From contig JAPLCJ010000047.1 in assembly GCA_026392255.1 (NCBI GenBank), positions 1 to 64,000 on the forward strand: 64,000 bases of DNA, written 5' to 3'. This stretch comes from Solirubrobacterales bacterium. GTDB lineage: Bacteria; Actinomycetota; Thermoleophilia; Solirubrobacterales; Solirubrobacteraceae. Below the pieces are notes generated by a model. The model made no database searches. It was not told where the DNA came from and saw only the letters and a list, made by a program, of their open reading frames with translations. The translations under genes were made by a program, and so were the position numbers. Shown here one piece after another: positions 18,161-61,910 of this stretch (within the stretch, counting starts at the first letter, position 1; each line of letters starts with the position of its first letter).

Positions 18161-20413
18161 ATGGCCGGCCGTGTCACATACTCCAAGAACGTGACCTTGT
18201 CACTGTCGCGTTCCTGTGCCTCCCACTGCAAGTACTGCGCGTTTGCAACGCACAAGGCGCACCTACAACCCCCGGAGGAAGTTGGGCGGATCCTTGACCG
18301 CGCTGCACGGCAGGGCGTGAAGGAGCTACTCGTCCTCACAGGAGAGCGTCCAGAAAGCATTCAGGGCGTCCAAGAGCGACTTGAGGCCCTCGGGCACCCA
18401 GACTTCGTCGCATACGTCGTGTGGGCCTGTGAGCAGGCTCTGGAGCGAGGGATCCTGCCCCACACCAACCTTGGGCCACTGACAGCCGAAGACCTGGGCC
18501 GTTTGCGCCGTGTGACCGCATCACAGGGCCTGATGCTTGAGTCATCGGCAGCACGGCTACTTGAGGCGGTCCATGCCGGATCGCCCGGGAAGGACCCAGC
18601 CGTACGACTCGCAACCATGCGTGCCGCTGGCGAGCTCCGCATTCCATTCACCACAGGGATTCTGGTTGGGATTGGCGAGACCCCCGCAGAGCGACTTGAG
18701 TCGCTGGATGCGATTGCCGAGGTTCACGCCGAGTACGGCCACATTCAAGAGGTGATCCTTCAGAACTTTGTTCCCCACCGCAAGTACTACGGGGAGGAAC
18801 CGGCTGACATTGCTGAGGCTGCCGCAGACGACTACTGGCGCACTGGAATTGGAACGCATCCGACGCTGGACCTTCCGGCCTGGGCATGTGAGGTGACAGT
18901 TGAGGACATGGTCGGCTTGGTTGAGGCAACGCGGGAGCGGATGCCAGACGTCGCCATTCAGATTCCTCCCAACCTTGCTGATTGGTGGCCTGAGCTTGTT
19001 GCTGCCGGAGCAGATGACCTTGGGGGACTCTCAGCTAACGGTGACCACATCTCTCCGGAGCACCCGTTCCCATCCCCAACGCGGGTTGCCCGCGACCTTG
19101 CCGAGACCGGGCACGCGTTGACCGAACGGCTGTGTGTTCACTCCGGCTTCATCAACAGCGACTGGGTTGATGCAGATGTCCTAGAGGTAATTCACGAGTC
19201 ACACGCGAGTTTCATGCCACGGACCACCCGCGAGCGATTGAGCTCAGGCCCCGTGCGTCCGAGGGACGAGATTGCTGGAATCGTGAGTCGCGCCCATGCC
19301 GGCGATCGCCTCAGTGACGAGGACTTGACGGCTCTCTTCAGGGAGGTCCGGCCAGAGGCAGTTGAGGACATCCGCCAGGCTGCGGATGACCTTCGCTCCG
19401 TGATGGTTGGAGACACGGTCACCTTCGTTGTCAACCGGAACCTCAACATCAGCAATGTTTGCCAGGTTGGCTGCGCTTTCTGCGGATTTGGCAAGGGCAA
19501 ACGCTCCCCCGAGGCCTATGAATATGGGGAGGATGAGTTCACAGCCCGAGTAAAGGAGGCGCTGCTGTTTGGTGCTACCGAGCTGTGCATCCAGTCGGGG
19601 ATTCACCCGGACTGGGGGATCGAGGACTACACGCGCTGGCTCAAGCTCGCCAAGGAGATCAGCCCAACGGTCCACCTTCACGCGTACTCGCCGATGGAGG
19701 TTGACCACATCTGCTCAGTAGCGGGCATCGAGCCCGATGAGGCATTCGCTCGCCTAAAAGCCGCCGGTCTTGATTCTGTCCCAGGGACCGCAGCGGAAGT
19801 CCTCGACGATGACATCCGGGCCCGGATTAGCCCCAACAAGCTGCCAGCGGCTCGCTGGGTGGAGATCATCGAGGCGTCGCATCGTGCGGGCCTGCCGTCA
19901 ACCGCAACAGTCATGTTCGGTCACATTGAGACCCCCGAGAGTCTGGCTCGCCACATGAACGTGATCCGTGACCTGCAGGAGCGCACCGGCGGGATCACCG
20001 AGTTTGTGCCGCTGTCCTTTGTCCCGGATCAGACCCGGCTTGGTCGCAGTCATGGGATCACTGAGATGACTATGGAGGACAACCTCCGTCATGCGGCTGT
20101 TTACAGACTGGCGATCGGGCGCAGCATCAAGAGCCTCCAAGCCAGCTGGGTCAAGATGGGCCTAGAGGCTGCAGTTGAGTCCCTCGACTGGGGTGTCAAC
20201 GACCTCGGTGGAACACTGATGGAGGAGTCGATCACCCGGATGGCCGGCGGTAAACACGGAACTGGAAGGTCCCCTACGGATCTGATTGCCGCAGCCCACA
20301 AGGCTGGTAGGCCAGCTGCTGAGCGAACCACGCTCTACGGCCTGCGGGAGGAGTACCCACTCCCACTGCCTGAATATGCAGAGTGGGCCCGCCAGCTCGC
20401 TGTAGCTGGCTGA
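18161..20413 (+). CDS. fbiC: FbiC: fused CofG/CofH 5-deazaflavin (FO) synthase
   Basis: A 750-residue protein with two radical-SAM domains. The first has CASHCKYCAF (Cys19, 23, 26); the second has CQVGCAFCGF (about residues 434-441). This is the fused architecture of actinobacterial FbiC, which joins a tyrosine-derived moiety to 5-amino-6-ribitylaminouracil to form FO, the F420 chromophore. Both halves look complete, including GIGETPAERLESL in the CofG part and SGIHPDWGIEDY in the CofH part. It converges with cofE over a 20-bp gap and heads the F420 region. Confidence 0.96.
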   Translation: MAGRVTYSKNVTLSLSRSCASHCKYCAFATHKAHLQPPEEVGRILDRAARQGVKELLVLTGERPESIQGVQERLEALGHPDFVAYVVWACEQALERGILPHTNLGPLTAEDLGRLRRVTASQGLMLESSAARLLEAVHAGSPGKDPAVRLATMRAAGELRIPFTTGILVGIGETPAERLESLDAIAEVHAEYGHIQEVILQNFVPHRKYYGEEPADIAEAAADDYWRTGIGTHPTLDLPAWACEVTVEDMVGLVEATRERMPDVAIQIPPNLADWWPELVAAGADDLGGLSANGDHISPEHPFPSPTRVARDLAETGHALTERLCVHSGFINSDWVDADVLEVIHESHASFMPRTTRERLSSGPVRPRDEIAGIVSRAHAGDRLSDEDLTALFREVRPEAVEDIRQAADDLRSVMVGDTVTFVVNRNLNISNVCQVGCAFCGFGKGKRSPEAYEYGEDEFTARVKEALLFGATELCIQSGIHPDWGIEDYTRWLKLAKEISPTVHLHAYSPMEVDHICSVAGIEPDEAFARLKAAGLDSVPGTAAEVLDDDIRARISPNKLPAARWVEIIEASHRAGLPSTATVMFGHIETPESLARHMNVIRDLQERTGGITEFVPLSFVPDQTRLGRSHGITEMTMEDNLRHAAVYRLAIGRSIKSLQASWVKMGLEAAVESLDWGVNDLGGTLMEESITRMAGGKHGTGRSPTDLIAAAHKAGRPAAERTTLYGLREEYPLPLPEYAEWARQLAVAG

Positions 20414-20433
20414 ACTCCACTTCGTAAGCCGAC

Positions 20434-21201
20434 TCAGCGCAGAAACATGTCTTGGTCAGCCGGTCGCCGTAAAGCGGCAGCACCAGGTCCATCTTCTGCG
20501 GTGATGAACCGTGCCAACCCTGAGACGAGCACGAACGGCTGACCAGAGTCCTTCGAGCGAGCCAGATCTGCTGCTGCTGCGACCGCGTCGGCGATGCCGA
20601 TTTCCGTTGCCGCAAGCGTTCTTCCATCGCGGTCGTTCCGGCCCCTCCAGTCATCCAGTGGGGCAAGGCCGGCGCATCCAATTGCGACATCCACTTGGCC
20701 AATGCGCCACGCACGTCCGAACGAGTCGGTGATCACCACGGCTGGGGCTGGGAGACCGGTCTGGTCGACGATATCAGCACGGATTTGGCGGGCTGAAGCG
20801 TCCGGGTCAACCGGGAGGAGGATGACCGTCTCCTCATCTGGAGAGTTGGATTCGTCAACGCCAGCGTTGGCGCAAACAAAGCCATGGTGGGTTAGGGAGA
20901 TCAGAACGCCTTGCTCCGCACGGATCAGCCGTTGCGACTGATCGAGGATGACCTGAACATGGCGAGGGTCTCTCGCCTGCTCTTTGGCGATCCGCTCAGC
21001 TTCCACAGTCGGGGTCACCTCGCCAAGCAGACGTGTGCTGCCCTCGGATTTGGAGACGACCTTGTGGGAGATGACTACAACGTCCTCGTTAGAGAAGCCG
21101 TCAGGCCCAACTGCGCTGATCGCAAGCGAGGCAATGTCAGTTCCCAGACGCACCTCTGCGGGGGAAGGGAGGGGACGGATGTGGATTCCCCCGTCAGTCA
21201 A
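20434..21201 (-). CDS. cofE: Coenzyme F420-0:L-glutamate ligase (CofE / FbiB N-terminal type)
   Basis: A 255-residue CofE-fold protein with VVISHKVVSKSEG, CANAGVDESN, VVITDSFGRAWRIGQ and AIGCAGLAPLDDWRG, all typical of F420 gamma-glutamyl ligase. It adds glutamates to F420-0. Many actinobacterial FbiB proteins carry an extra C-terminal nitroreductase-like FMN domain; this one ends at the CofE length, so that domain is absent or encoded elsewhere. The start is a TTG overlapping the end of cofC by 8 bp. Confidence 0.93.
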   Translation of the reverse strand: MTDGGIHIRPLPSPAEVRLGTDIASLAISAVGPDGFSNEDVVVISHKVVSKSEGSTRLLGEVTPTVEAERIAKEQARDPRHVQVILDQSQRLIRAEQGVLISLTHHGFVCANAGVDESNSPDEETVILLPVDPDASARQIRADIVDQTGLPAPAVVITDSFGRAWRIGQVDVAIGCAGLAPLDDWRGRNDRDGRTLAATEIGIADAVAAAADLARSKDSGQPFVLVSGLARFITAEDGPGAAALRRPADQDMFLR

Positions 21202-21859
21202 CGGCCACCTGCGCCATCTGCGTCAGAAGACCACGGGTGTGCGCGGCTCCGCCATGGAAGCCGAGAAGATGGGCGCGCATCGCGACTAGGTCCTCCGCGG
21301 TGTCAATGTCCAACGCAAGGCTTGGAATAGAGACTGTCTTTCCGGCGACTGAGGCGTCGGCTGCGAGGCCAAGGTGACGCTCGTGTGAGCCCGGGCCAAA
21401 TGCTGGACTGATGGCATCGGGTGGGCAGACCAGAAGCGCATTGGTCCCGGTTCCATGCCGGTCGGGAACTACAACTAGGCCGGTTGAGGATCTGTGCTCG
21501 ATCAGGAACGCGTCAACCTCAACTGCATCAAGCGCTGGGCAGTCACCGGGGACAAGGAACACACGCTCCGCTCCGTTCGCGATCGCATAGGTAACGCCAA
21601 CTGAGGCCGCAGCGCTATGGCTTTGGGCTCCAGCGTCGTCTAGCCACTCGGCGCCGTGGTGACCGGCCATGCGTGCTGTCTCTGGATCACCGGAAACAAC
21701 AACGACGGTTTCGATCCCACTGCAGCGACCTAGGGCCACCAGAACATCAGCGAACATAGCCGCCGCTAGGGCCCGCCGTTGAGCATCCGGGATCTCCCCG
21801 TAGAGGCGCGATTTGCCTACCTCGGGTGACTTCATCGGCAGGATTGCGAAGGTGGTCAT
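21194..21859 (-). CDS. cofC: 2-phospho-L-lactate (or PEP) guanylyltransferase CofC/FbiD
   Basis: A 221-residue MobA-like nucleotidyltransferase with an N-terminal ILPMKSPEVGKSRL loop (family VPxKxxxxAKSRL), VVVVSGDPET, FLVPGDCPAL and VVVPDRHGTGTNAL. It activates phosphoenolpyruvate or phospholactate with GTP for the CofD step. It overlaps cofD by 4 bp and cofE by 8 bp in one minus-strand operon. Confidence 0.93.
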   Translation of the reverse strand: MTTFAILPMKSPEVGKSRLYGEIPDAQRRALAAAMFADVLVALGRCSGIETVVVVSGDPETARMAGHHGAEWLDDAGAQSHSAAASVGVTYAIANGAERVFLVPGDCPALDAVEVDAFLIEHRSSTGLVVVPDRHGTGTNALLVCPPDAISPAFGPGSHERHLGLAADASVAGKTVSIPSLALDIDTAEDLVAMRAHLLGFHGGAAHTRGLLTQMAQVAVD

Positions 21860-22806
21860 CGCCCGTCGCCCTCGAGGCCCATCGCGAACGCGAGAGTCTC
21901 GGCTGCGAGCCGCCGGCGGCCGTCCTCTCCCTCCATCAGAAGATCTGTCAACAGCGTTGGTGTGTCGGCTACGTCCTGGTCGGCTACGAGCCCGTCGATC
22001 AGCGCCGCGTAGTGCTGCGCGATCCCCGCGGCGGACTGTTCGACGCCAGCCGCACGAAGGAACTCCTCCGTTGGCCCCTTGACCGCATTGCCATGGACAA
22101 GGGGGCTGACCGCGACCACTGGGGCCCTCGCTGATTGGATTGCCTCCGTCATGCCCGGGACAGCCAGAATCGGGCCAATCGAGATTGCCGGGTTGGAAGG
22201 GCCGATCACAATCACGTCAGCAGAGGCAATAGCTGACAGGACCTCTGGGGTTGGAGTAGCAGCAGCGATTCCCTCCAGCACCACGGCCTCCACGGGGCCG
22301 GCGGCTTGGTCAACGATCATGAATTCTTGGAATGGGCGTTCTACGCCCCCGACCACAACCTGGGTTGCCACGGGTTCATCACACATGGGTAGGACCGCTG
22401 CCTCGATGCCGAACGACTCCGCGAGGGCAGCAGTGGCCTGAGTAAGGGTCTGTCCTTCAGCCAGCCTCTGCGCTCGGTCGATCCCGATCGCGAGGTCCTT
22501 ATCGCCGAGCTGGAACCAGTTCTCGGCATCGAGTTCACCCAGCTGGGCCATTGCGTGGAATGTGTCGCCGTCAAGTCCCCAGCCGCGTTCATTGATGCGA
22601 CCAGCCAGGTGGAAGATGATCAAGTCCGGATCCGGGCACACGCGTGCGCCATAAATGGAGACGTCATCACCAGTGTTAGCGATGACACTTAGACGGACAT
22701 CGGGAAGGGCAGCAAAGCCACTTGCGAGCTTGGCGCCACCGGTGCCCCCAGCAAGTACGACGACGCTGCTACGTGCGTCAGGCGTCGGGGTTGAGTCCTG
22801 TGACAC
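21856..22806 (-). CDS. cofD: 2-phospho-L-lactate transferase CofD/FbiA
   Basis: A 316-residue protein with the N-terminal VLAGGTGGAKLASG, NTGDDVSIYGARVCPDPD, WGLDGDTFHAM and WFQLGDKDLA segments that define CofD. It transfers the activated lactyl/PEP group to FO, giving F420-0 (or the dehydro form). The GTG start lies 29 bp inside the end of the fno gene. The gene directly follows the F420 reductase and precedes cofC and cofE. Confidence 0.95.
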   Translation of the reverse strand: MSQDSTPTPDARSSVVVLAGGTGGAKLASGFAALPDVRLSVIANTGDDVSIYGARVCPDPDLIIFHLAGRINERGWGLDGDTFHAMAQLGELDAENWFQLGDKDLAIGIDRAQRLAEGQTLTQATAALAESFGIEAAVLPMCDEPVATQVVVGGVERPFQEFMIVDQAAGPVEAVVLEGIAAATPTPEVLSAIASADVIVIGPSNPAISIGPILAVPGMTEAIQSARAPVVAVSPLVHGNAVKGPTEEFLRAAGVEQSAAGIAQHYAALIDGLVADQDVADTPTLLTDLLMEGEDGRRRLAAETLAFAMGLEGDGR

Positions 22807-28541: not shown

Positions 28542-28748
28542 TTAGGGGTAGACCTGCTCACCCGTGTCATCGTCAAAAACGGCAATGGCGACGGAGGGGC
28601 AGACTGATGCGGCTTCAAGGATCAGGTCGTCTGGTCCGGTTCCGATGACGACTGCGATGTCGTCGATGCGGAAGACCTGTGGGGCTACCTCAACGCAGTC
28701 TCCGTGGAGCGCGCATGCGGATTCATCAATTACGGGTCGTAGTGACAT
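28542..28748 (-). CDS. Small ferredoxin, P450/oxygenase type
   Basis: A 68-residue single-cluster ferredoxin. CALHGDCVEVAPQVF and the distal CPSVAI give three Cys, consistent with a [3Fe-4S] cluster as in P450-associated actinobacterial ferredoxins. The start ATG has an AAGAAAGG ribosome site. It is the last gene of the redox operon and sits 11 bp behind its likely reductase. It could also serve the P450 at 47979-49220. Confidence 0.88.
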   Translation of the reverse strand: MSLRPVIDESACALHGDCVEVAPQVFRIDDIAVVIGTGPDDLILEAASVCPSVAIAVFDDDTGEQVYP

Positions 28749-28759
28749 TGCTGCCTTTC

Positions 28760-29920
28760 TTACGGCTTGAGCGTAGGGACGGTAAAGAGCTTGCGTAGCG
28801 CGGGGAGGGAGCGGGGGCGACCGACCGCTAGTGCTGCTGTCGGGGTGTCCCCGTCGTACCAAATCGCTTCGAAGTCGAGGCTGTCGGTCTCACCATCAAT
28901 CTCAAGGCGATCAGTGTCAGATGCTTTGCCCAGATGCTGGAGCCTGACCCCGTACATGTCTGACCAGAACGAGGACATCGGCTCGGCTCCAGCGGGAAGG
29001 CCAAGCATGTCCTTGGCAACAGCGCGTGCCTCGGCACCGGCGGCTTCCCAATGCTCAGTGCGATGGTGTCGACCAAGTCGGTCATTCCAGTGACAGGCGA
29101 CATCGCCAGCTGCCCAGATTCCTTCCGCATCGGTTTGTCCAACTGCGTTGCAGCGAATCCCGTTCTCAACGTTGAGTCCACTGCTCTCAAGCCACTGGCT
29201 GTTAGGCGCCGCGCCAACGGCGACAAGCAGGTGATCGAGTGGGATCTCACTCCCGTCGGATAGAACGACAGCTTCGGCGACTCGCTCACCCTTGACCGCT
29301 GCCACTCCGGTGCCGCACCTAAGGTCGACGCCTTCGCGCCGGTGCCAGGCAGCCAGCCAGGTGCCGAGCTCATGTCCAAGTATCCCGCGTAGGGGAATGT
29401 CTTCTGCCTCGATGATCGTGACCTCGACGCCCAGCTTTCTCGCTGTGGAGGCAACCTCGAGTCCAATGAAGCCCGCGCCGATGATGGTCAGCTTGGTGCC
29501 TGGAACAAGGGCATCGCGGAGGAGTCGTGCATCAGCGGCACTTCTCAACACATGGGAGTTGAGGAAGGCATCAAAGCCTGGAATCATCTTTGCGCGTGAA
29601 CCTGTTGCCAGAAGAATGCGGTCGGCAGAGTGCTGAGCGCCTGATGCGAGCCAGACGGTGCCGGAGCCAGTCTCTAGGTCGGTAGCCGGATCGCCGAGGA
29701 CAAGCTCGACGCCGTGCTCCACGTACCACTCGGCTGTGCGAAAGCTTGTGTCAGGGAACTCGTCGCCCGACAGAGCTTCCTTGGAGAGCGGCGGGCGGTC
29801 GTAGGGGAGGCTTGGTTCATCGGAGACCATCGTGATGGGGCCTTCTGCGCCCTCACGATGGAGTGCCTCAATACAGCGTTGTGCCGCAAGGCCACCGCCA
29901 ATGACAAGAGTTGACGTCAT
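28760..29920 (-). CDS. FAD-dependent ferredoxin reductase (rubredoxin/rhodocoxin reductase type)
   Basis: A 386-residue two-dinucleotide-binding flavoprotein. FAD motif VIGGGLAAQRCIEAL at the N-terminus, YDRPPLSKE, ATGSRAK, a second GxGxxG at IIGAGFIGLEVA (NAD site), and FAD contact GIWAAGDVA. This is the class that reduces P450 or dioxygenase ferredoxins. It lies between the ferredoxin and the ferric-reductase-like gene (ATGA overlap with the latter), suggesting one NAD(P)H-to-ferredoxin-to-membrane electron route. Confidence 0.92.
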   Translation of the reverse strand: MTSTLVIGGGLAAQRCIEALHREGAEGPITMVSDEPSLPYDRPPLSKEALSGDEFPDTSFRTAEWYVEHGVELVLGDPATDLETGSGTVWLASGAQHSADRILLATGSRAKMIPGFDAFLNSHVLRSAADARLLRDALVPGTKLTIIGAGFIGLEVASTARKLGVEVTIIEAEDIPLRGILGHELGTWLAAWHRREGVDLRCGTGVAAVKGERVAEAVVLSDGSEIPLDHLLVAVGAAPNSQWLESSGLNVENGIRCNAVGQTDAEGIWAAGDVACHWNDRLGRHHRTEHWEAAGAEARAVAKDMLGLPAGAEPMSSFWSDMYGVRLQHLGKASDTDRLEIDGETDSLDFEAIWYDGDTPTAALAVGRPRSLPALRKLFTVPTLKP

Positions 29921-30621
29921 CGGCCGGGACCCCTTTGTAGATCCCTATTGAGAGGGGCCGGAATAGTGACTTGGGTTTCAGTGCCAGCGCGCGCTGGTCG
30001 TCCACCGTGGGAGTCGACGATCACGGTGTCACCGTGGGTGCCTGGTGCGCTGATGTCTCTATCCCGGTTGCCCTCCGGGAGCCAGCGGTAAAGGGTGAGG
30101 AAAAGGGCTGGAGCGACACTGGCAAGGATGATAGCTCGGAGCCAGATCGTGCCCGCGTCGGTTCCAGCCCCGAGTGAATGTACGACGCCCATGATCCAAA
30201 CCACAATGATGAAACGGTGCATCAGCCGCCAACGCTTGACCCCGATCAACTTGCGGGCATAGAACGAAAGAGCCAAGAGGATTGTGGTGTACCCAGCAAC
30301 GATCCCGATGGCAACCCAGAAAGGCCGGTAGCCGATCACACCAGGAACGGCGATCCCGGCCACTGAGGCCTTAAGCCATTTGTCCCCCAGCAGCGTTACT
30401 CCGTGGACCACGATCATCAAGACGGAGAAGAGCGCAAGGTATTCGTGGGCTGGCATCAACTTGGCTTTTAGACCGCGCTTATTGATGATTCCGCTTGCCA
30501 TCACGAGGCCAAGGATTGTCGACAGCGTGACGAAGAGAAGCGCAGTGATCCCGGCTGCTCGACTTGCGAGCCACCAGCTGTACTTGAACGGATCCGGGTT
30601 AGTCAGAGCGAGCGGAATCAA
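29917..30621 (-). CDS. Ferric-reductase-like transmembrane haem protein
   Basis: A 234-residue protein with about six membrane helices and paired His residues on two of them (AHEYLALFSVLMIVVHG and RLMHRFIIVVWIMGVVHSLG), the pattern of b-haem ligation in ferric reductase/NOX/MsrQ-like proteins. A soluble basic C-tail of about 50 residues follows, without FAD/NAD domains. Electrons must therefore come from a partner such as the ferredoxin system next door. The overlap with apbE and with the reductase shows a tight operon. Confidence 0.88.
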   Translation of the reverse strand: MIPLALTNPDPFKYSWWLASRAAGITALLFVTLSTILGLVMASGIINKRGLKAKLMPAHEYLALFSVLMIVVHGVTLLGDKWLKASVAGIAVPGVIGYRPFWVAIGIVAGYTTILLALSFYARKLIGVKRWRLMHRFIIVVWIMGVVHSLGAGTDAGTIWLRAIILASVAPALFLTLYRWLPEGNRDRDISAPGTHGDTVIVDSHGGRPARAGTETQVTIPAPLNRDLQRGPGR

Positions 30622-31613
30622 GCTGCATCCGCATTAGAGGGATGAACGAGCCTCAGGTGACGTCGCTCCATCGCCGTTGCCACAGGTCCGTAGAGCTCCA
30701 CAGTGCCATCATCCAAGAGGGCTACCCCGCCGTCGAGTTCAAGTATCGAGGTGGCTTTAGGGCCACCCAGTAGAACCTGCTTGGCGCGAGTCTCAGCCTC
30801 AAGCGCAGTTGGCGCCATCGCAGTGGCTTGGACGATCCCAGTCCATGCCGGTTGTCCGGTGGACGGGTCAAGCAGGTGGTGGGCGTAGCCGTAATCGGTC
30901 TTCCAGATCCGGGAACCGATCCCCGATGTGGCAACGGCTCCATGACCAACTTTGATAACTACGAGGTGGTCCCCGCCGAATGGATCTTCGATGGTCACGC
31001 GGTAAGGGTCGATTGACGCGTCTGGTCCGCCAATGCGCATGTCACCAGCTGCGTTAACGCAGAACCGCTCCCGGTCGGTGAGCATCGCCGCAGCGGCGTC
31101 CGCCACCAGGCCTTTGCCGACTCCACCAGAGTCAATTCTCACTCCCACTGGCCGTGTGACTGTCCCGGCGTTGTGGTCCACGTAGATCTCGCGCCAGATG
31201 GAGTCCCGGCGGGCAGCCGCCGGCCGCGCCGGTGGGGCGCAGAGCAGTGCCTCGGCCAGCGGTGCTGGGGTGGCGTTGCGGAATGTCTCCAGGTAACCAA
31301 CCTCCTCCAGCTCGCCGACGAGGGTTGGGTCTAGGAGTCCATCGCTCTGCTCTGCCGCCCAGATTGCCGCTGATACCAGGGACCGCAACAGTGGACTTGC
31401 GGGAACAGTTTCGTTCGGGTCTGTGTTCAGTCGAGAGAGTTCGCTGCCCGAGTTAAATCTTGAAAGGCTTTGATCAAACCGTTCGATGCTCGCTCGCACG
31501 GCTCCAGCCTCGGCCTCGGCCGGTGTGCCCGAGGGTCGGGTGCTTGGCCCAACCAGTACGCGGATACCGCACCCCATGGCGTTGAACGGCAGGTCGTATT
31601 CAGGCAAGGCCAT
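30618..31613 (-). CDS. apbE: ApbE-family FAD:protein FMN transferase
   Basis: A 331-residue ApbE-like protein with NAMGCGIRVLV near the start, RFDQSLSRFNSGSELSRLN (family SxxxxxSExxxLN), RIDSGGVGKGLVADAAA (the GGxxKG motif), VNAAGDMRIGG, and the late Mg-binding TAMAPTALEAETRAK. It would covalently attach FMN to a Thr of a secreted or membrane partner. No signal peptide is obvious. No FMN-binding domain protein or D-x-x-(S/T)-G-A-T acceptor is visible in the neighbours, so its target is open. Confidence 0.9.
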   Translation of the reverse strand: MALPEYDLPFNAMGCGIRVLVGPSTRPSGTPAEAEAGAVRASIERFDQSLSRFNSGSELSRLNTDPNETVPASPLLRSLVSAAIWAAEQSDGLLDPTLVGELEEVGYLETFRNATPAPLAEALLCAPPARPAAARRDSIWREIYVDHNAGTVTRPVGVRIDSGGVGKGLVADAAAAMLTDRERFCVNAAGDMRIGGPDASIDPYRVTIEDPFGGDHLVVIKVGHGAVATSGIGSRIWKTDYGYAHHLLDPSTGQPAWTGIVQATAMAPTALEAETRAKQVLLGGPKATSILELDGGVALLDDGTVELYGPVATAMERRHLRLVHPSNADAA

Positions 31614-31619
31614 TGGTGA

Positions 31620-32033
31620 TCAGCCGCCAGACGACCCTGAAGAGACTGTGGGGGCTGAGTAGGTTGGCGCTGAATAGGTTGGCGCTGGAGACGAGTATGA
31701 GCTGCTTCCACCGGATCCTCCGTAGGAATTACTCGATGAGCTACCGGATGACGAGTAGTCGCTCGAGTAGCCGCCGTAGCTGTCTGGCACTGGGGCGTCA
31801 TAAACCCTGGTGACGATGATCTTCTTGACCTTGTGATGGACCACTTTGCGCTTCTGCCAGCCGTGTCCAAGCGATGGGTCCTTGCCTGCGGCAACCTGGA
31901 ATCCGAGCAGGGAGGTGAAGGTTACAAATGTGACCACGCCGGCGGCGAAGACAGGCTTGGGGCCGATCCGCTTTGGCCGCGCTGGGACTTGTCTTGGCCT
32001 TGCTTCTCTGGGTCTCGGTGCTGGGTCAGCCAT
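31620..32033 (-). CDS. Small Ser/Gly/Tyr-rich membrane-anchored protein
   Basis: About 137 residues. A basic Pro-rich N-terminus (residues 1-25), one membrane segment (FAAGVVTFVTFTSLLGFQVAA) and then KVVHHKVKKIIVTRVYDAP. The tail is low-complexity Ser/Gly/Tyr with a PTYSA repeat, predicted outside the cell (type II topology). It belongs to the ferric-reductase/ApbE operon and overlaps the upstream small protein gene by 8 bp. It shares with that protein the order hydrophobic segment, basic beta-like stretch, Ser/Thr/Pro-rich tail, so the two may be paralogues. Function unknown. Confidence 0.78.
   Translation of the reverse strand: MADPAPRPREARPRQVPARPKRIGPKPVFAAGVVTFVTFTSLLGFQVAAGKDPSLGHGWQKRKVVHHKVKKIIVTRVYDAPVPDSYGGYSSDYSSSGSSSSNSYGGSGGSSSYSSPAPTYSAPTYSAPTVSSGSSGG
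31654..31683. repeat. Tandem 15-bp repeat coding for PTYSA units
   Basis: GCTGAGTAGGTTGGC is followed directly by GCTGAATAGGTTGGC, one mismatch apart. In the overlapping minus-strand gene these encode the PTYSA repeats of the Ser-rich tail, so copy number may vary between strains. Confidence 0.7.
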
Positions 32034-32424
32034 CGCTGCCTTCCTGTTCACTGTGTCGAGCACTATCGTCGCCTGATCCGTCTTCGCCCTCAGATGAGTA
32101 CCCGCCGCTGCTGTGTGTGCTCACGGTTGGCGCTGGAGTGGTCGCTGCTGGCGTCGATCGGTAGGTGGCTGTTTGCGCTGGAGGATTTGCTGCAGCGTAA
32201 GTTGTCCCTCCCGTTGTTACTGGTGCAGTCAGAGGATGTGCTCTTGGCTTAGCCCGGAGGTGAATCGTCCGGCGGATTATTTGGACTTCGGTCTTGATCA
32301 CATCGGACTGAGCAACGGTCTTTCCGGCCATGCCGGGATTGGCTGCGCCCATCCCGACCGCTGCGAATGCGCCAACGGTTGCAATTGTTGCTCCTGCTGC
32401 GATTCCTGTCTTACTGCTGAACAT
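32026..32424 (-). CDS. Small secreted or membrane-anchored protein, Thr/Pro/Ser-rich
   Basis: About 132 residues with an N-terminal hydrophobic segment (GIAAGATIATVGAFAAVGMGAA), then VIKTEVQIIRRTIHLRAKP and a Thr/Pro/Ser-rich tail with an acidic end (EGEDGSGDDSARHSEQ). The start is fixed by AGGAG a few bases before ATG 32422-32424. It is the first gene of the six-gene redox operon and diverges from the response-regulator gene. Family not recognised. See the downstream gene for a similar design. Confidence 0.75.
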   Translation of the reverse strand: MFSSKTGIAAGATIATVGAFAAVGMGAANPGMAGKTVAQSDVIKTEVQIIRRTIHLRAKPRAHPLTAPVTTGGTTYAAANPPAQTATYRSTPAATTPAPTVSTHSSGGYSSEGEDGSGDDSARHSEQEGSDG

Positions 32425-32576
32425 TTTTTCTCCTGTTATCGGCCTTGGACTGTCTTGCTTCACACAGTCTGGAAGGCCGTTAGTAAGTCCTTTCCAGCCG
32501 ATGTCCATTGTTGAGTAAAAACGTAAGAGAGTCCTGTGAGTGCCTCAACGGCCGCGGAAACGGTCAGCGTTGGGTG

Positions 32577-32582
32577 TAGAGT
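32577..32582 (+). promoter_or_regulatory. -10 element of the two-component operon
   Basis: TAGAGT ends exactly 8 bp before the ATG at 32591, with no Shine-Dalgarno between, arguing for a leaderless response-regulator mRNA and against the longer open frame beginning at 32540. Confidence 0.5.
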
Positions 32583-32590
32583 CCCCACCT

Positions 32591-33343
32591 ATGGAACTTC
32601 AAGCGGGATCAGAAGGAACCATTCTCTTTGTAGAGGACGAACCTGACATCAGCGCAGGGCTTACTCGGCAGCTGACACGGGCTGGGTTCGAGGTCACTAC
32701 GGCGCGTACGGTCAAGGAAACGCGCGGCATCCTCGCGCACAGTGCTTTGCCAGACCTCGTTCTGTTGGACCTCGGACTCCCCGATGACCCGGAGGGTGGG
32801 CTTGTGCTTGCCGCAGAGATTCGCGGCAAGTCCGGCGGGCACGTTCCGATCCTCATCTTCTCCGCCGATAGCACCGATGAGAGCGCTCGAATGGCCGACA
32901 AGCTTGGCGCATGGGATTTCATTGTCAAGGGGACGCGCGAGACAGAGACTGTTATTCAGCGCATCAAACGGCTGATCGAGATTTCGAGACTGAACCAAAA
33001 ACGCGCCACGGTTGAATCACGGGGGCCGGTCGCCATTGGTGATCTACACGTCGACTTTGACCGCTATGAGGCCACCATCGGTGGTGAGCGTATGTTGCTT
33101 AGCCACAAGGAGTTTGAGCTGCTCAGGCGTCTGCTTGAGGACTCAGGCAAGGTCGTGACGCGGGAGCAGCTGATGGCTGATGTCTGGGACGAGAACTGGT
33201 TCGGCTCGACCAAGACCCTTGATGTTCACATCGGCTGGTTGCGCCGCAAACTCCATGACGATCCGGCGGAGCCCAAGTATCTCTTCACCGTTCGCGGTGT
33301 TGGGTTCAGGTTCGCTTCGGCCGAGGAATTGGAAGCAGTCTGA
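32591..33343 (+). CDS. OmpR/PhoB-family response regulator
   Basis: A 250-residue protein. The receiver domain has the acidic pair in FVEDEPD, phospho-acceptor Asp60 in LVLLDLGLPD, and a conserved Lys in FIVKGT. The C-terminal winged helix has LLSHKEFELLRRLLEDSGKV, then TKTLDVHIGWLRRKL and VRGVGFRF. Its stop overlaps the CTG start of the histidine kinase (CTGA). Divergent from the redox operon, it is the obvious candidate regulator of that operon. Confidence 0.93.
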   Translation: MELQAGSEGTILFVEDEPDISAGLTRQLTRAGFEVTTARTVKETRGILAHSALPDLVLLDLGLPDDPEGGLVLAAEIRGKSGGHVPILIFSADSTDESARMADKLGAWDFIVKGTRETETVIQRIKRLIEISRLNQKRATVESRGPVAIGDLHVDFDRYEATIGGERMLLSHKEFELLRRLLEDSGKVVTREQLMADVWDENWFGSTKTLDVHIGWLRRKLHDDPAEPKYLFTVRGVGFRFASAEELEAV

Positions 33344-34794
33344 GTCTCCGGGCGAGGCTTCTGTGGGCTCTCGCCTACATCCTTGTGCTCGCGATTGTCG
33401 CGCTCGAGGTTCCTCTCGGTATCAACGTTGTTGACCGAATTCGGTCGGATGCCAAGGCACAGGCTCTCTCGCAGGCTCAGAGCACGGCTGCGGCTGCCAA
33501 CGACAGCATTGAGCCGCCGCAGCTGGCAAACCTTGACGAGCTCGTGAAGACAAACGCGGCCACTGCAAAGGGGCGCGTCATGGTCTTCAACAAAACCGGG
33601 CTTACCCTGGCCGACAGCTCAGGTCCCGGCCGTTCGGGTGCTGACTATTCGACTCGGCCGGAGGTCAAGGCCGCCATTGGGGGTGATGTGGTGCAGATCG
33701 AGCGCCACTCAAACACGATGGATAGGGACATGCTCGCTACTGCCGTGCCGGTCATCCACTTTGGCAAGACGGTTGGAGCCGTCCGTATCACGCAGGACTC
33801 AACGGTCATTACAGACTCAGTCAACAGGGCAGTGGTTGGATTGGTCGCGATCGGGCTGCTCGTCCTGCTGCTAGGTCTTGCGGCTGGCTGGCTGATCGCC
33901 AACCAGCTCTCGCGTCCAATGAGGCGATTGGAAAAGACAGCTGAGCGCGTTTACCTCGGTGATCTAAACGCACGAGCCGCGATCGAGGGTCCAAGAGAGC
34001 AGCGAGCGTTGGCAGTCGCCCTCAACAACATGCTCGACCGATTGATCGGGATGTTCAACTCCCAGCGCGACTTTGTTGCGGATGCGTCGCATCAGCTCCG
34101 AACGCCTCTGCAAGCTCTGCGAACAGCGGTGGAAGAGATTGTGTTCGTAGCGGAATCTCCGGAAATTCAACCTGAGGTGGCCAAAGCAAACGCTGCGTTC
34201 ACGCGCATCAACAGCACCATCGACCAGTTGCTGTTCCTCAGTCAGCTTCGTGACAGGAAGGTTGTAGCGACAAGGATTGACTTGCCTCAATACGCCGAAT
34301 CGGTGGCCTCCAGGTGGCGGCCGAACGCTGCCACAGCGGGGATAGATATCAACGTCAAGGGTGCCCCACCTTGGGGTAGACGCTATGGGATGTGCGCGCA
34401 GGAAGACCTTGACCGGGTGATTGACGCACTGGTGGAAAACAGCGTCGCCTACTCGCACGGAAAGGGACCGATTGAGATTGGTGCAGTAGCGGGTGGTATC
34501 GAGATCACTGACCGTGGGCCGGGGCTTCAGACGGGAGAGGAGGAACGTGTCTTCGAGCGTTTCGCCCGGGGCTCCGCTGGCGCAGATCGGTCGGAAGGAA
34601 CAGGACTGGGCCTCGCTATCGCCAGAGAGATCATGGAGATCTGGAATGGGTCGGTTGAGTTGACTAACCGGACTGATGGCATTACGGGAGCGAGAGCACT
34701 GGTGCTCGTTTCAGGGGGCGTGAGGGACGACGAGCACAACGATGAGGAGCTTGACCTGCGGGATGATGGCGACTTCGGAGATAACGTCAACTAG
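33340..34794 (+). CDS. Sensor histidine kinase with probable CTG start
   Basis: About 484 residues: TM1 (LLWALAYILVLAIVALEVPLG), a periplasmic-type sensor region with WVVIHFGKTVG-like cache features, TM2 (VGLVAIGLLVLLLGLAAGWL), HAMP (SRPMRRLEKTAERV), H-box DASHQLRTPLQ (His about residue 248) and ATPase boxes (ALVENSVAYS, DRGPGLQ, GTGLGLAIA). The first in-frame ATG/GTG is GTG 33385, which would cut TM1 in half. Reading from the CTG at 33340 restores the full TM1 and the common MSLRARL-like start, with a CTGA overlap to the regulator. Confidence 0.88.
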   Translation: MSLRARLLWALAYILVLAIVALEVPLGINVVDRIRSDAKAQALSQAQSTAAAANDSIEPPQLANLDELVKTNAATAKGRVMVFNKTGLTLADSSGPGRSGADYSTRPEVKAAIGGDVVQIERHSNTMDRDMLATAVPVIHFGKTVGAVRITQDSTVITDSVNRAVVGLVAIGLLVLLLGLAAGWLIANQLSRPMRRLEKTAERVYLGDLNARAAIEGPREQRALAVALNNMLDRLIGMFNSQRDFVADASHQLRTPLQALRTAVEEIVFVAESPEIQPEVAKANAAFTRINSTIDQLLFLSQLRDRKVVATRIDLPQYAESVASRWRPNAATAGIDINVKGAPPWGRRYGMCAQEDLDRVIDALVENSVAYSHGKGPIEIGAVAGGIEITDRGPGLQTGEEERVFERFARGSAGADRSEGTGLGLAIAREIMEIWNGSVELTNRTDGITGARALVLVSGGVRDDEHNDEELDLRDDGDFGDNVN

Positions 34795-35109
34795 ATGCTT
34801 GAGTTCACGCGTAGCCGAATTGTTGTGCTTGCCATTGTGGGACTGATGATCGCCGCCCTGCTTGGCTGGGCTGTCGAGGGGCTCGCGACAGAAAAGGTTC
34901 TGCTCTCTGGTGCCTCTGCTGACGCCGGCTATGACTTGACTCCGGACGGTAAGGCAGCCAAGGCCGCTTCCTCAAGCAGCAGTAATGCCGCCCCGTTGGT
35001 AACTGAGGTCGGCCCAGACGGCAAGATCAAGGTTGTGTCCGGCCATGCCTCCACCGGCGGGAGCAGCTACACGGCGGATAACTCCAAGAGCCGCAGCCGC
35101 GACGACTGA
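34795..35109 (+). CDS. Small membrane-anchored protein in the two-component operon
   Basis: A 104-residue protein beginning directly after the kinase stop. One membrane helix (RIVVLAIVGLMIAALLGWAV) is followed by an exported low-complexity segment with a Ser run, LVTEVGPDGKIKVVSG and a basic/acidic end. No family recognised. Its design recalls the two small proteins of the divergent redox operon, so it may be an accessory or ligand-sensing partner of the kinase. Confidence 0.75.
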   Translation: MLEFTRSRIVVLAIVGLMIAALLGWAVEGLATEKVLLSGASADAGYDLTPDGKAAKAASSSSSNAAPLVTEVGPDGKIKVVSGHASTGGSSYTADNSKSRSRDD

Positions 35110-44441: not shown

Positions 44442-45416
44442 ATGCGCGCACAACAGATCTCAGAACTAGGCGGACCGGACTCACTCACACTCGTTGATCT
44501 GCCTGACCCAGTTGCCGATGCTGGGTCAGTGTTGATTGAGGTTTATGCAGCAGGCGTCAGCTTCCCAGACCTACTCCTCACCCAAGGGCTTTACCAAATG
44601 AAGCCGGAGCTTCCTTTTGTACCAGGAGTTGATGTTTCAGGAGTAGTGATCACCGCGCCAGAAGGGTCCGACCTCAAGCCTGGGGATCGCGTCGCCGCCA
44701 TGACAGGGCTGGGTGGGTTCGCGCAGCTCGCAGCCGCTCCTGCCATGCTCACGTTTGCGATCCCCGACACACTCTCCTTTGAGGCTGCCGCTGGGTTTGT
44801 GATGAACCACCACACCGCGGTCTTCGCCCTTCAGCGACGCGGTGAGTTGAAGGCAGGGGAGACCGTGCTCATCCTCGGGGCTGGCGGCGGCGTAGGGACA
44901 GCCGCCATCCAAGTGGCACATGCGATTGGCGCGAGGGTGATTGCTGTTGCCTCAAGCGACGCAACGCGCGCGGCCGCGACGGCAGCCGGGGCTGAGACAG
45001 TTCTTGACGGGGCAGCGGACTGGGGCCCGCAGGTCAAAGAGTTGACAGGTGGGCGTGGGGTTGATGTGGTTGTTGACCCGGTCGGCGGCGACGCTTTCAC
45101 TGCCGGGCTGCGTTCTCTTGCCCCTGAGGGCCGCCTGCTCGTAATCGGTTTCGCAGCAGGCTCAATCCCTGAGATCGCTGCCAACCGGATCCTTCTGCGC
45201 AATGTCTCAGTGGTTGGCGTGAACTGGGGTGGCTACATCGCGGGGCACCCTTCCTATGCGGCTGAGGCAGCAGCCCAGCTAGCCGAATGGCTCGATCAGG
45301 GCCTGATCCGTCCAGAGGTTGGCCTTACCTACTCCTTTGAGGATTCGGCCCAAGCATTGCGTGATCTGGGTGACCGCAAGGCTGTTGCCAAGTCTGTGAT
45401 TCGCGTTAAGGACTGA
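44442..45416 (+). CDS. MDR-family NADPH:quinone oxidoreductase
   Basis: A 324-residue zinc-free MDR with PFVPGVDVSGVV, LGAGGGVGTAAIQVA (cofactor site) and VDVVVDPVGGDAF, ending in KAVAKSVIRV. The order matches QOR/NADPH2:quinone reductase-like proteins. TACTAA is 10 bp upstream of the ATG. It converges with egtD and overlaps it by 11 bp. Confidence 0.88.
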   Translation: MRAQQISELGGPDSLTLVDLPDPVADAGSVLIEVYAAGVSFPDLLLTQGLYQMKPELPFVPGVDVSGVVITAPEGSDLKPGDRVAAMTGLGGFAQLAAAPAMLTFAIPDTLSFEAAAGFVMNHHTAVFALQRRGELKAGETVLILGAGGGVGTAAIQVAHAIGARVIAVASSDATRAAATAAGAETVLDGAADWGPQVKELTGGRGVDVVVDPVGGDAFTAGLRSLAPEGRLLVIGFAAGSIPEIAANRILLRNVSVVGVNWGGYIAGHPSYAAEAAAQLAEWLDQGLIRPEVGLTYSFEDSAQALRDLGDRKAVAKSVIRVKD

Positions 45417-46410
45417 GCTGGGGATGACTCAGCGATAGGGCGAACTGGCCTGCGCTGTCAGTCTCAAACCAGGCAAGCTCGAGTCCAGCGCCGGCTAGGT
45501 CCTGCTCAAGCCGCTCCGGCGTGAATTTGGCGCTCACCTCGGTCAGGATTTCCTCGCCCGCCTCAAAGACCACCCTGAGGGCGCTGAGGTTCTTAATTGT
45601 CACTTCCTGAGCCAGGGTTGACCGCAGACGCATCTCGATCTGCTCCTCCTGCTCGTTGTAGAGGGCAATGTGTTCGAAAGAGTTGAGATCAAAATCAGCG
45701 TCGAGCTCCCGGTTGATCACTTGGAGCACGTTGCGATTGAAGGCTGCGGTGACCCCCTGCGAGTCGTCATATGCGGCTTCCAGTGGCGCGCGGTCCTTGA
45801 CGAGGTCAGTGCCTAGCAGGAGGTAATCGGTTGGCCGCAGGGCCGCGCTGATCCCCGCGAGGAGATCGGCCCTATCGGCCCCAATGAAGTTGCCGACAGT
45901 TCCGCCCAACAAGGCCACGATTCGCGGTCCCTCGCTTGCCGGGACAGCGTCCATGTGTCGCAGAAAGTCCCCGGCAACACCGTGAACCTTGAGCCCCGGG
46001 TATTCGTCTGCGATTGCTTCGCATACCTGCCGAAGCTGTTGCTCGGCCACGTCCATCGGGACGTACGTATCTAGTGTTCCGGCTTCGGATAGAGCCGTCA
46101 GAAGTACCCGAGTCTTGTCGGCACTTCCGGCGCCAAGCTCCACCAACTCTGTCGCCCCTGTCAGTTGAGCGATCTGGGCAGATTGCGTGACAAGGATCTC
46201 CCTTTCAGCGCGGGTTGGGTAGTACTCGGGAAGGTCGCAGATCTGGTCAAACAGCTCCGCTCCTACCGAGTCGTAGAAGTGCTTTGGTGGAAGTGTCTTA
46301 GGGCTTGCGCTGAGCCCGGCAAGGACGTCGTCAGCGAGGGTCCGCTGGCTGGTGTCGGCGAGTAGCGTCGTGACTGTTATGTCAGGAGCTGTGTCGGGTA
46401 GAGGTGTCAT
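45406..46410 (-). CDS. egtD: L-histidine N-alpha-methyltransferase EgtD
   Basis: A 334-residue protein with PPKHFYDSVGAELFDQI, LPEYYPTRAE, SAM site LVELGAGSADKTRVLL and LLLGTDLVKD, the usual EgtD pattern. It trimethylates histidine to hercynine, the first step of ergothioneine synthesis. It overlaps egtB by 4 bp. No egtA, egtC or egtE is present in this window, suggesting the reduced two-gene pathway or genes elsewhere. Confidence 0.94.
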   Translation of the reverse strand: MTPLPDTAPDITVTTLLADTSQRTLADDVLAGLSASPKTLPPKHFYDSVGAELFDQICDLPEYYPTRAEREILVTQSAQIAQLTGATELVELGAGSADKTRVLLTALSEAGTLDTYVPMDVAEQQLRQVCEAIADEYPGLKVHGVAGDFLRHMDAVPASEGPRIVALLGGTVGNFIGADRADLLAGISAALRPTDYLLLGTDLVKDRAPLEAAYDDSQGVTAAFNRNVLQVINRELDADFDLNSFEHIALYNEQEEQIEMRLRSTLAQEVTIKNLSALRVVFEAGEEILTEVSAKFTPERLEQDLAGAGLELAWFETDSAGQFALSLSHPQLSP

Positions 46411-47519
46411 GCGTCAGCAGCTAGCCGCAGGCCGGAGAAGATCTGACGTCTTTGGGGAAGATCCCAGTTGCGGAATGTGGTGGTTGCAACCCGGGGCGAA
46501 CTTGCCCACGAGCCGCCCCGAAGCACTCTGTACTGATCGCCAAAGAACACCTCTGAGTACTCGCGGTAGGGGAAAGCTTGAAAGCTGGGATATCCACCAA
46601 AGGTGCTTGACGTCCATTCCCACCCATAGCCCGTTCCGTCGAGCAGGCCTGCTGCAGCTGCGACCTCCCACTCATGCTCTGCTGGAAGTCGACAGTCAGA
46701 GAACCGTGCAAAGGCCTCGGCTTCGTGAAACGAGATATTGGCAACTGGTGCTGCAGGCTCCCCGGTGTCCCAGCGGAGCGGCGCCGTGACATCGGCGTCT
46801 GTGCGCCACGCCCATCCTTCTGGTGACCACAGCTCCTCGCGGAGATACCCGTCGGAGTTGATGAACTCTGCCCAGCTCTGATTATTGACGGGGCTGCTCG
46901 CTATCGCGAATGAGGCAAGAACGACGGTGTGACGTGGCCGCTCGTTGTCATAGGCAAAGCAGTCGTTGTCTGCCCCAATCCAATTCTCGCCGGCGGGGAC
47001 AACGACGGACGGACGGTCGGTGCCTGATACGGCCTCATGTCCGCTGGGCGGCTCGTCTGAGGGGAGCAGTCTGCCAAGAGCCATTGTCTGACGCATGGTC
47101 TCTGTGTGCTGAAGCTCATGCCGTATGACCATCTCGTGAAAGAACTCATGGGCGCCTAGTCGCCTGGTGCCCTCAGCGACTCGGGCCCGGACGGCTGCCA
47201 GATAATCAAGGGCTTCGGTGTACGTGAGCAGTCCTAGGTCACCACGGACCTCCCGGGGTGTCTCAAATGCGTCATAGAGGGCTGCTAGTTCGGGCTGAAG
47301 CAGATCCATCCCGAAGGTCCGATGGGAGAGCCAAAGGTCTTCGTATGCTGCGATATGGCCTAAGTCCCAGGCCAAGGGGCTCATCAGTGGGTCAATGACA
47401 CGTTCCATGTCAAATGTGGTGATCTGAGCAACAAGGTCCAGCGTTTGGAGTCGTGCCGCGTCCAACTCGGAGAGTAGGTCCTCGCTTCCGACTGATGTAC
47501 TTGGCTGTGTGGCTGACAT
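46407..47519 (-). CDS. egtB: EgtB-type hercynine oxygenase (sulfoxide synthase)
   Basis: A 370-residue protein: N-terminal DinB-like helical bundle with iron ligands DLGHIAAYEDLW and RHELQHTETM (H-x3-H), then an FGE-sulfatase-like domain with VPAGENWIGADND, LPAEHEWEVAAA, GYGWEWTSS and VLRGGSW. Length and motifs fit EgtB, which joins hercynine to cysteine or gamma-glutamylcysteine. TAGAGT lies 9 bp before the ATG. It is the first gene of the egtB-egtD operon. Which thiol donor it uses cannot be read. Confidence 0.93.
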   Translation of the reverse strand: MSATQPSTSVGSEDLLSELDAARLQTLDLVAQITTFDMERVIDPLMSPLAWDLGHIAAYEDLWLSHRTFGMDLLQPELAALYDAFETPREVRGDLGLLTYTEALDYLAAVRARVAEGTRRLGAHEFFHEMVIRHELQHTETMRQTMALGRLLPSDEPPSGHEAVSGTDRPSVVVPAGENWIGADNDCFAYDNERPRHTVVLASFAIASSPVNNQSWAEFINSDGYLREELWSPEGWAWRTDADVTAPLRWDTGEPAAPVANISFHEAEAFARFSDCRLPAEHEWEVAAAAGLLDGTGYGWEWTSSTFGGYPSFQAFPYREYSEVFFGDQYRVLRGGSWASSPRVATTTFRNWDLPQRRQIFSGLRLAADA

Positions 47520-47978: not shown

Positions 47979-49220
47979 CTAAGAGGCACGGGGCCCCAAG
48001 GTGACCGGAAGCGCCTTGAGCTGATTTACAAACCCGGAGATGACCTGCGTCGGTGCCCCGTTGAGTTCCATCGCTGGATAGCGAGAGAAGGTTTCCTCCA
48101 GAAGGATCTTCAGCTCAAGGCGTGCGAGCGCTGAGCCAAGGCAGAAGTGTCGCCCGCCCGCACCAAAGGACTGGTGGGTTGGGTTGCGCTCGACGTCAAA
48201 CTCATCGGCTCGCTCAAACTCGTCCTCATCGCGCCCGGCTCCGATGTACCACATGACAACCTTGTCGCCTTCCTTGATCTCCTGCCCGTTGATGACCGTG
48301 TCCTTGGTCGCTGTACGGCGGAAGTGAGCGAACGCGGGGAACATTCTCAGTGATTCCTCGACGGTGCTGGGGACAAGGTCCATGTTTGCCAGGAGCTTGG
48401 CCTTCTGGTCTGGGTTCTCAAGCAGGGCCCTAACCGCACTTGAGAATGTTGACTTAGTGCTGTCGTTCCCCGCTGCCATCAGTAGGAAGAACCCCATGAT
48501 GATCTCGTGGTCCTCAAGCTTCTCGCCGTCAACCTCGGCGTGGACTAGGACACTGGTGAGGTCCTCGGTCGGGTTCTCGCGGCGGGCGTTGACCAGTGCT
48601 TGAGCTTTCTCGAAGACGAGCGGCATGTCGCGCTCCATGATTGATTGCAGGCCTTCGGGGTTCACATCGAGATCATTGGCGGCGAGGATCGTGTTGATCA
48701 GCTCTGACCAGATCAGAACATCCTCATCTGCAATGCCCATGAAGCCGCAGATCACGCGGGCAACGACCGGTTGGGCAATGTCGTGGACGACATCGCACGT
48801 CTCTTGGTCGTCGAGCTTGTCCAGCTCCTCGCGCACGATTTGACGGATTTCGTCCTCGTGCATCGCAATGCGCTTCGGGGTGAAGCCGCGCTGGAAGAGC
48901 GCTTTAAGTCGATCGTGCTTGGGCGGGTCCATCGCAATGAACATGCTCTGCATAAGCTCGAGTGGCAGTGCGCCAGTGGCTGCGAGTATGCCCCCGCGCT
49001 CTGAGGAAAAGGTTTCCCAGTCGCGGCTGACGGTCCTTAAGTCGTCGGCCTTGGTCAGCGACCAGAAGCCAGGCTCGTCGGGAAAGTCCAGCATGTCGGC
49101 CGTGAAGTGCACGGGGCATTCGTTGCGCAGTCGCTTGAAGAACTCGTAGGGAGGGCCATCAGCCCACATCTCCTCGTCGAACGCTGGCATCTCATCAAGT
49201 GGGATTTCCTTCTCTGACAT
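47979..49220 (-). CDS. Cytochrome P450
   Basis: A 413-residue P450: I-helix LLMAAGNDSTKS, ExxR in EESLRMFPAFAHFRRT, and haem-Cys loop FGAGGRHFCLGSALARLEL. It resembles bacterial soluble P450s of the CYP124/125/142-like group that hydroxylate lipids or steroids, but the substrate is unknown. AGAGGAG precedes the ATG. The ferredoxin and reductase at 28542-29920 could supply electrons. It ends near DoxX and diverges from the thiolase operon. Confidence 0.93.
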   Translation of the reverse strand: MSEKEIPLDEMPAFDEEMWADGPPYEFFKRLRNECPVHFTADMLDFPDEPGFWSLTKADDLRTVSRDWETFSSERGGILAATGALPLELMQSMFIAMDPPKHDRLKALFQRGFTPKRIAMHEDEIRQIVREELDKLDDQETCDVVHDIAQPVVARVICGFMGIADEDVLIWSELINTILAANDLDVNPEGLQSIMERDMPLVFEKAQALVNARRENPTEDLTSVLVHAEVDGEKLEDHEIIMGFFLLMAAGNDSTKSTFSSAVRALLENPDQKAKLLANMDLVPSTVEESLRMFPAFAHFRRTATKDTVINGQEIKEGDKVVMWYIGAGRDEDEFERADEFDVERNPTHQSFGAGGRHFCLGSALARLELKILLEETFSRYPAMELNGAPTQVISGFVNQLKALPVTLGPRAS

Positions 49221-61070: not shown

Positions 61071-61106
61071 AAAAATTACATACACGCTCGAGGAAAGGTG
61101 TGGCTA

Positions 61107-61883: not shown

Positions 61884-61910
61884 TCAGCAGGAATGTTGAA
61901 GGGGCTGAGG

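Follow-up and report, generated by a model that had tools for sequence, protein, structure and literature searches.

A Conserved Actinobacterial Operon Links ApbE to Membrane-Anchored, Serine-Tailed Proteins That Are Candidate Flavin Carriers

Positions 28542 to 32424 of a 64,000-nucleotide stretch of Solirubrobacterales DNA (positions 1 to 64,000 of contig JAPLCJ010000047.1, assembly GCA_026392255.1; hereafter, the window) hold six consecutive open reading frames (ORFs), which run head to tail on the minus strand from 32424 to 28542 and encode two small proteins (SmA and SmB), a member of the ApbE flavin transferase family (ApbE), a haem membrane protein (FerRed), a ferredoxin reductase (FdR), and a ferredoxin (Fd). 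This operon probably serves transmembrane electron export, with flavin mononucleotide (FMN) attached by ApbE to serines in the membrane-anchored, disordered tails of SmA and SmB. Judging from the sequence comparisons, such tails may well constitute a class of ApbE substrates that lacks a folded flavin domain, bears the flavin tag at or close to the C-terminal serine, occurs across much of Actinobacteriota, and is accompanied by a remodelled ApbE metal site. The host genome is actinobacterial (1.66 Mb in 61 contigs, 93% complete). The features of the operon are the following.

32026..32424, minus strand: SmA, 132 amino acids (aa), with a signal-anchor-like N-terminus, a basic strip (RRTIH), a disordered-looking T/S/G/P tail, and an acidic C-terminus (family alignment)
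32101..32127, minus strand: SmA motif TVSTHSSGG (residues 100-108), candidate FMN-serine site; relatives have hx[TS]x[ST]SG
31620..32033, minus strand: SmB, 137 aa, with one transmembrane helix (residues 26-48), a basic strip, and a Ser/Gly/Tyr/Pro tail without a predicted fold (AlphaFold, charge)
31623..31649, minus strand: SmB motif TVSSGSSGG at the very C-terminus (residues 129-137), candidate FMN-serine site; peptide pattern common to SmA
30618..31613, minus strand: ApbE, 331 aa, FAD:protein FMN transferase family (PF02424, E 3e-42; FAD, flavin adenine dinucleotide); single copy found in the genome
29917..30621, minus strand: FerRed, 234 aa, ferric reductase/STEAP/NOX-like b-haem membrane protein without a FAD/NAD domain (Ferric_reduct match, invariant His, AlphaFold, Foldseek)
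28760..29920, minus strand: FdR, 386 aa, NAD(P)H:ferredoxin reductase of the oxygenase/P450 type (Pyr_redox_2, E 2e-61; Reductase_C, E 5e-11)
28542..28748, minus strand: Fd, 68 aa, ferredoxin with CxxHxxC...CP (Fer4_13, E 2e-7; match to P450-fused ferredoxin)

The genes are tightly packed: the SmA and SmB ORFs overlap by 8 bp, a gap of 6 bp separates SmB from ApbE, ApbE and FerRed as well as FerRed and FdR overlap by 4 bp, and 11 bp lie between FdR and Fd, the start codon of which was chosen from 68-aa relatives. Genes for a response regulator (RR), a histidine kinase (HK), and a further small protein (SmC) diverge from the operon on the plus strand, starting at 32540. The ORF coordinates, the overlaps, and the domain matches bear out the original prediction of a six-gene operon divergent from a two-component system.

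Serine Motif in the Tails of SmA and SmB

Neither SmA nor SmB matches a Pfam or NCBIfam family. The AlphaFold model of SmB contains only the helix at residues 26-48, with the tail at low confidence, and the tails of both proteins are apparently disordered. In SmB homologues, a single transmembrane helix at the N-terminus is followed by a basic strip, a linker whose length varies greatly, and a conserved end. Charge favours an N-in/C-out topology in both families, with the N side of SmB net positive. The SmA and SmB of the window share the pattern TVS[ST]xSSGG but hardly any of its codons.

Among 42 B-type proteins, 27 end in [ST]x[AST]S, compared with 1.5 expected by shuffling. A wider set comprised 87 proteins, each the lowest-complexity ORF ending near the apbE start, some of which may be misassigned neighbours. 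Serine is the last residue in 77 of these, all with Ser or Thr at position -3 (terminal [ST]xxS), against a mean of 5.0 of 87 in shuffled tails (maximum 13 over 5000 shuffles) and 45 of 2600 (1.7%) among the other ORFs of the same loci. The 77 are not independent events, the proteins being homologous, and kinship inflates every count; independent support comes from the co-occurrence with ApbE described below and from unrelated-looking tails (loci L062, L067, and L068) with the same end. The ten exceptions include three same-genus proteins in which GG follows the motif, one protein in which RTPG follows it, and three proteins beside an FMN_bind-linked ApbE. The end is PVTGAS in the outlier L062; SGGS, SSGAS, or VTSGAS next to a sister type of ApbE; and VTTGGS, STGGS, VTRSGGS, and the like, in some cases with a few residues after, in loci sampled elsewhere in the phylum. 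Some relatives' tails end in the canonical TGAS or SGAS.

In SmA, the motif is internal and recurs as the tail repeat P-h-x-T-x-[ST]-S-G: hx[TS]x[ST]SG was found in 18 of 29 SmA proteins, in one to four copies each, amounting to 32 sites versus 0.3 in shuffles. At six loci (L040, L042, L048, L053, L057, and L060), a third small tail protein with an internal motif (e.g., PVTTRTSGG) is encoded between SmA and SmB.

Co-occurrence with ApbE and Absence of Searched Substrates

In the genome (93% complete), neither FMN_bind (PF04205) nor NqrB/RnfD nor DUF2271 was detected; the search did not extend to DUF3570, Flavodoxin_4, or FMN_red. The genome also contains no coding site of the canonical form D-x-h-[ST]-G-A-[ST]-x-[ST], the codons of the two DNA matches giving Cys at the acceptor position or a stop. 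The original observation that no FMN-binding domain is encoded near the operon is thereby confirmed and extended to the genome at this level of completeness.

A search of 151 genomes, the host's own and those of relatives, recovered ApbE in 93 and FMN_bind in 17, with 77 containing ApbE without FMN_bind; an alternative ApbE substrate is therefore needed in most of the group. SmB homologues are present in 54 of these genomes, all 54 of which encode ApbE (hypergeometric P 6e-16, a value that ignores shared ancestry) and 47 of which lack FMN_bind. SmA homologues were detected in 56 genomes, and the 49 found at E<1e-5 all have ApbE. SmA, SmB, or a Ser-tail neighbour is present in 61 of the 77 genomes with ApbE but without FMN_bind. 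In the fetched loci, FMN_bind was not detected closer than 3.5 kb to any tail-linked ApbE, and the ApbE homologue adjoining FMN_bind, where found, is of a distant type (<40 bits). Thus, no FMN_bind gene that could be paired with this ApbE was found elsewhere in the genome, and in relatives only ApbE of the distant type was found beside FMN_bind. The conserved serine motif, the strict co-occurrence with ApbE, and the absence of the searched known substrates lend specific support to the earlier suggestion of SmA and SmB as unusual partners for flavin.

Conservation of the Locus in Relatives

We compared 41 loci, namely, the window and 40 ApbE regions from relatives; the counts are lower bounds, as some contigs end early. 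FerRed was detected at 37 loci, SmB at 34, SmA, RR, and HK at 28 each, Fd at 19, and FdR at 16. Based on these counts, the core consists of the tails, ApbE, FerRed, and the two-component system, and the electron donor genes differ between loci or have diverged beyond detection. Gene order in relatives, which the original prediction had put forward as a check, proved to be conserved for the tails, ApbE, FerRed, and RR/HK and less constant for FdR and Fd. The latter two occupy the equivalent place in all four same-genus genomes, in one of which the gene caller gave no separate Fd. A scan of genome contigs for ApbE matched only two pieces from one freshwater-type Actinomycetota metagenome-assembled genome, which hold close relatives of the window ApbE; the distribution figures given above come from the search of 151 genomes.

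Proteins of the Predicted Electron Path

FerRed matches Ferric_reduct (PF01794) at E 2e-4 and 22.1 bits, under the 28-bit cut-off. Across 55 homologues, His 59, 73, 135, and 148 are invariant, and their spacing is that of two-haem ferric reductase/NOX proteins; the probable haem ligands are His 59/73 and 135/148. The AlphaFold model (mean pLDDT, i.e., predicted local distance difference test, 84.6) has as its top Foldseek matches STEAP1/2 and the membrane domain of Streptococcus pneumoniae NOX, all with E-values >0.05 and none reaching E 0.001; the likeness to S. pneumoniae NOX also has profile support. The four histidines, the model, and these top but weak structural matches agree with the earlier description of a ferric reductase-like b-haem protein without a FAD domain of its own.

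FdR and Fd have the hallmarks of P450/oxygenase-type partners, that is, Pyr_redox_2 plus Reductase_C and a single-cluster ferredoxin with CxxHxxC...CP. The FdR match to AndAa/HcaD-like families falls under the cut-off, and Fd additionally matches Fer4_15.

The window ApbE, which has solved ApbE structures among its relatives, retains the D and K of the DxGGxxKG motif, GD, TS, and the His whose equivalent is regarded as the general base in Vibrio cholerae ApbE (PMC12052999). Metal ligands were assigned from the paper on the Escherichia coli Ftp structure (PMC4767422). In the tail-linked ApbEs (loci L032-L161), the metal-site Asp/Thr pair is changed to Glu/Lys, or to Asn/Thr in the sister type, whereas FMN_bind-linked ApbEs in the same genomes retain both residues (AD..T). 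This alteration may be an adaptation to a different substrate or a sign of changed activity. The ApbE tree was a quick tree, from which the FMN_bind-linked ApbEs were excluded by length.

A Proposed Mechanism and Its Alternatives

From the sequences, we infer the following scheme of flavinylation, topology, and electron flow. ApbE would attach FMN through a phosphoester to the serine of a short [ST]-x-[AST]-S motif, which in SmB lies close to the C-terminus and in SmA precedes the acidic end. Electrons from NAD(P)H would pass to FdR (FAD), then to Fd (FeS), and through the two b haems of FerRed across the membrane to the tail-bound FMN, which would hand them to an acceptor within the cell wall or outside it. 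One or both tails would act as tethered, freely moving extracytosolic flavin arms, or whip-like carriers. The original reading of the locus as a membrane electron conduit fits this anatomy and the conserved gene order.

Several observations weigh against this scheme. The motif in the tails lacks the canonical aspartate and, usually, Gly-Ala; the canonical D-x-x-[ST]-G-A-[ST] is absent from the tails of the window (TVSTHSSGG and terminal TVSSGSSGG), with [ST]GA[ST] occurring only in some relatives, and the genus of the window has a motif (xSSGG) that is off the family consensus. The motif aspartate has been called essential (PMC10722498), although serine is accepted at the ApbE site and the effect of the aspartate was minor in one mutational study (PMC12052999). 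The tails are S/T-rich, so that loose forms of the motif are frequent by chance, and the terminal Ser is always encoded by TCN. In an alignment of 98 ApbE proteins, the Asp of metal site 1 is replaced by Glu in 79 and by Asn in 16, and the Thr four residues after it is Lys in 80. FdR and Fd were detected at under half of the 41 loci. Finally, the apbE gene has no space for a signal peptide, whereas the predicted location of the tails is extracytosolic; FMN attachment would therefore have to precede tail export. Cytosolic ApbEs exist (PMC12052999), and the ORFs of the FMN_bind-linked ApbEs in the same genomes likewise begin at the domain.

The constant TCN codon is partly explained by the overlap of the tail gene with the apbE start, many tail genes ending in TCATGA or TCGTGA, which raises the question of whether the terminal motif as a whole results from translational coupling or from the overlap of start and stop rather than being a protein signal. 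This is highly improbable: the overlap determines neither bases 1 and 2 of the final codon nor residue -3, for which ACN, TCN, and AGC codons are mixed, and it fails to account for stops located 20-107 bp upstream of apbE, for the internal motifs of SmA, and for three SmB-like paralogues encoded away from apbE, which end in VQSAAS, VRSGTS, and VVTSSS. Start/stop overlap was accordingly rejected, in the main, as the cause of the motif, which the genes with distant stops and the SmB paralogues keep. Alternatively, the small proteins could be structural or metal-binding and unflavinylated, with the motif serving recognition, glycosylation, or processing and with an undetected ApbE substrate encoded elsewhere. 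S/T/P/A-rich tails with acidic ends, such as those found here, resemble the glycosylated linkers typically seen in proteins secreted by actinobacteria, and ~7% of the genome is missing and could hide a substrate. We consider this possibility unlikely, given that the motif resembles an ApbE site, is exact in some loci (terminal TGAS and SGAS), and tracks ApbE across the 151 genomes, and that a missing contig is insufficient to explain why 77 of the 93 ApbE genomes lack FMN_bind too.

A third alternative concerns the electron donors: FdR and Fd might serve another partner, e.g., a P450, with the FerRed/ApbE/tail module fed by quinol or another reductase. Both proteins resemble oxygenase/P450 partners, they were found at only 16 (FdR) and 19 (Fd) of the 41 loci, and a cytochrome P450 encoded in the window (47979-49220, minus strand) could compete for Fd. 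Yet both genes belong to the operon, where their ends overlap or nearly touch those of their neighbours, and they occupy the equivalent place in all four same-genus genomes; we regard a separate role for them as doubtful.

Comparison with Known Flavinylation Systems

The closest described counterparts of the proposed system are the MsrQ-like flavinylation systems, with which it shares a ferric reductase-like b-haem membrane protein accompanied by ApbE in Actinobacteria. Such systems typically include an FMN_bind gene, and the haem protein often bears the NAD-binding domain (Meheust et al. 2021, PMC8238504). The locus in the window has a PF01794-like membrane protein beside ApbE, although with a PF01794 score under the curated cut-off; in contrast, no PF04205 partner, which is typical but not part of the operational definition in that paper, is present in the genome, the haem protein has no NAD-binding domain, and separate FdR and Fd proteins and small tails are found instead. 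The same survey (PMC8238504) discarded genes without a signal peptide or lipidation site, and this ApbE and the tails could therefore have escaped it.

ApbE substrates listed in surveys include FMN_bind, DUF2271, DUF3570, NqrB/RnfD, Flavodoxin_4, and FMN_red, with unidentified ones remaining (PMC8238504, PMC11334425). They resemble SmA and SmB in having a Ser/Thr motif near an apbE gene, and FMN_red substrates bear their sites on an unstructured C-terminal extension (PMC8238504, PMC11334425), but all are folded, whereas SmA and SmB have no predicted folded flavin domain. Likewise, multi-flavinylated proteins (PMC8238504, PMC10339131) share with the repeat-containing SmA of relatives the presence of several candidate sites per protein, but are strings of folded FMN_bind domains. 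In the engineered Flavin-tag (Tong et al., in PMC12052999), a 7-residue motif is enough for ApbE and works best at a protein terminus; the short terminal motif is common to both, the Flavin-tag being a laboratory construct and the motif described here a natural, conserved C-terminal one. We found no disordered ApbE substrates in the open-licence PubMed Central literature. Three points would be new in our proposal: that no folded flavin domain is involved, that the site lies right at the C-terminus, and that such proteins are widespread.

In the survey of Meheust et al., 670 genomes encoded ApbE without a known partner, and unknown substrates were expected (PMC8238504). If correct, the present proposal would offer a substrate for many such ApbE genes, imply that flavin can be carried without a folded domain, and describe a very simple way of taking electrons across a thick cell wall. 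A further point of note is the lineage of ApbE proteins whose metal site is altered.

Regulatory Genes and Other Features of the Window

32540..33343, plus strand: RR, OmpR-type response regulator (domain match), probable regulator of the operon
33385..34794, plus strand: HK, HAMP sensor histidine kinase (domain match)
34795..35109, plus strand: SmC, small one-helix protein 3' of the kinase gene, with DD as its last residues; related small proteins in several relatives
47979-49220, minus strand: cytochrome P450 gene, possible alternative partner of Fd and FdR

Relatives of SmC occupy the equivalent position. A terminal DD is found in most proteins of the SmA and SmC types, which suggests a partner in common. 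Between the divergent operons (32425-32600), a stretch like TTTTTACTCAACAATG is kept in three same-genus genomes and is a possible promoter or regulator site; alignment of the promoter region in these three genomes revealed a short conserved stretch but established no regulator site. There are no iron-specific genes within the operon and no specific evidence for iron; an Nramp gene 13 kb away was not counted as such.

Elsewhere in the window, a DUF4430 protein and a CbiQ-like transport protein are encoded in a row, preceded by another exported protein (60972-63724, plus strand), and look like part of an energy-coupling factor (ECF)-type vitamin or metal uptake system. The translations at 18161-22806 and 45406-47519 look like proteins of F420 synthesis (FO synthase, CofE, and CofD) and ergothioneine synthesis (EgtB and EgtD).

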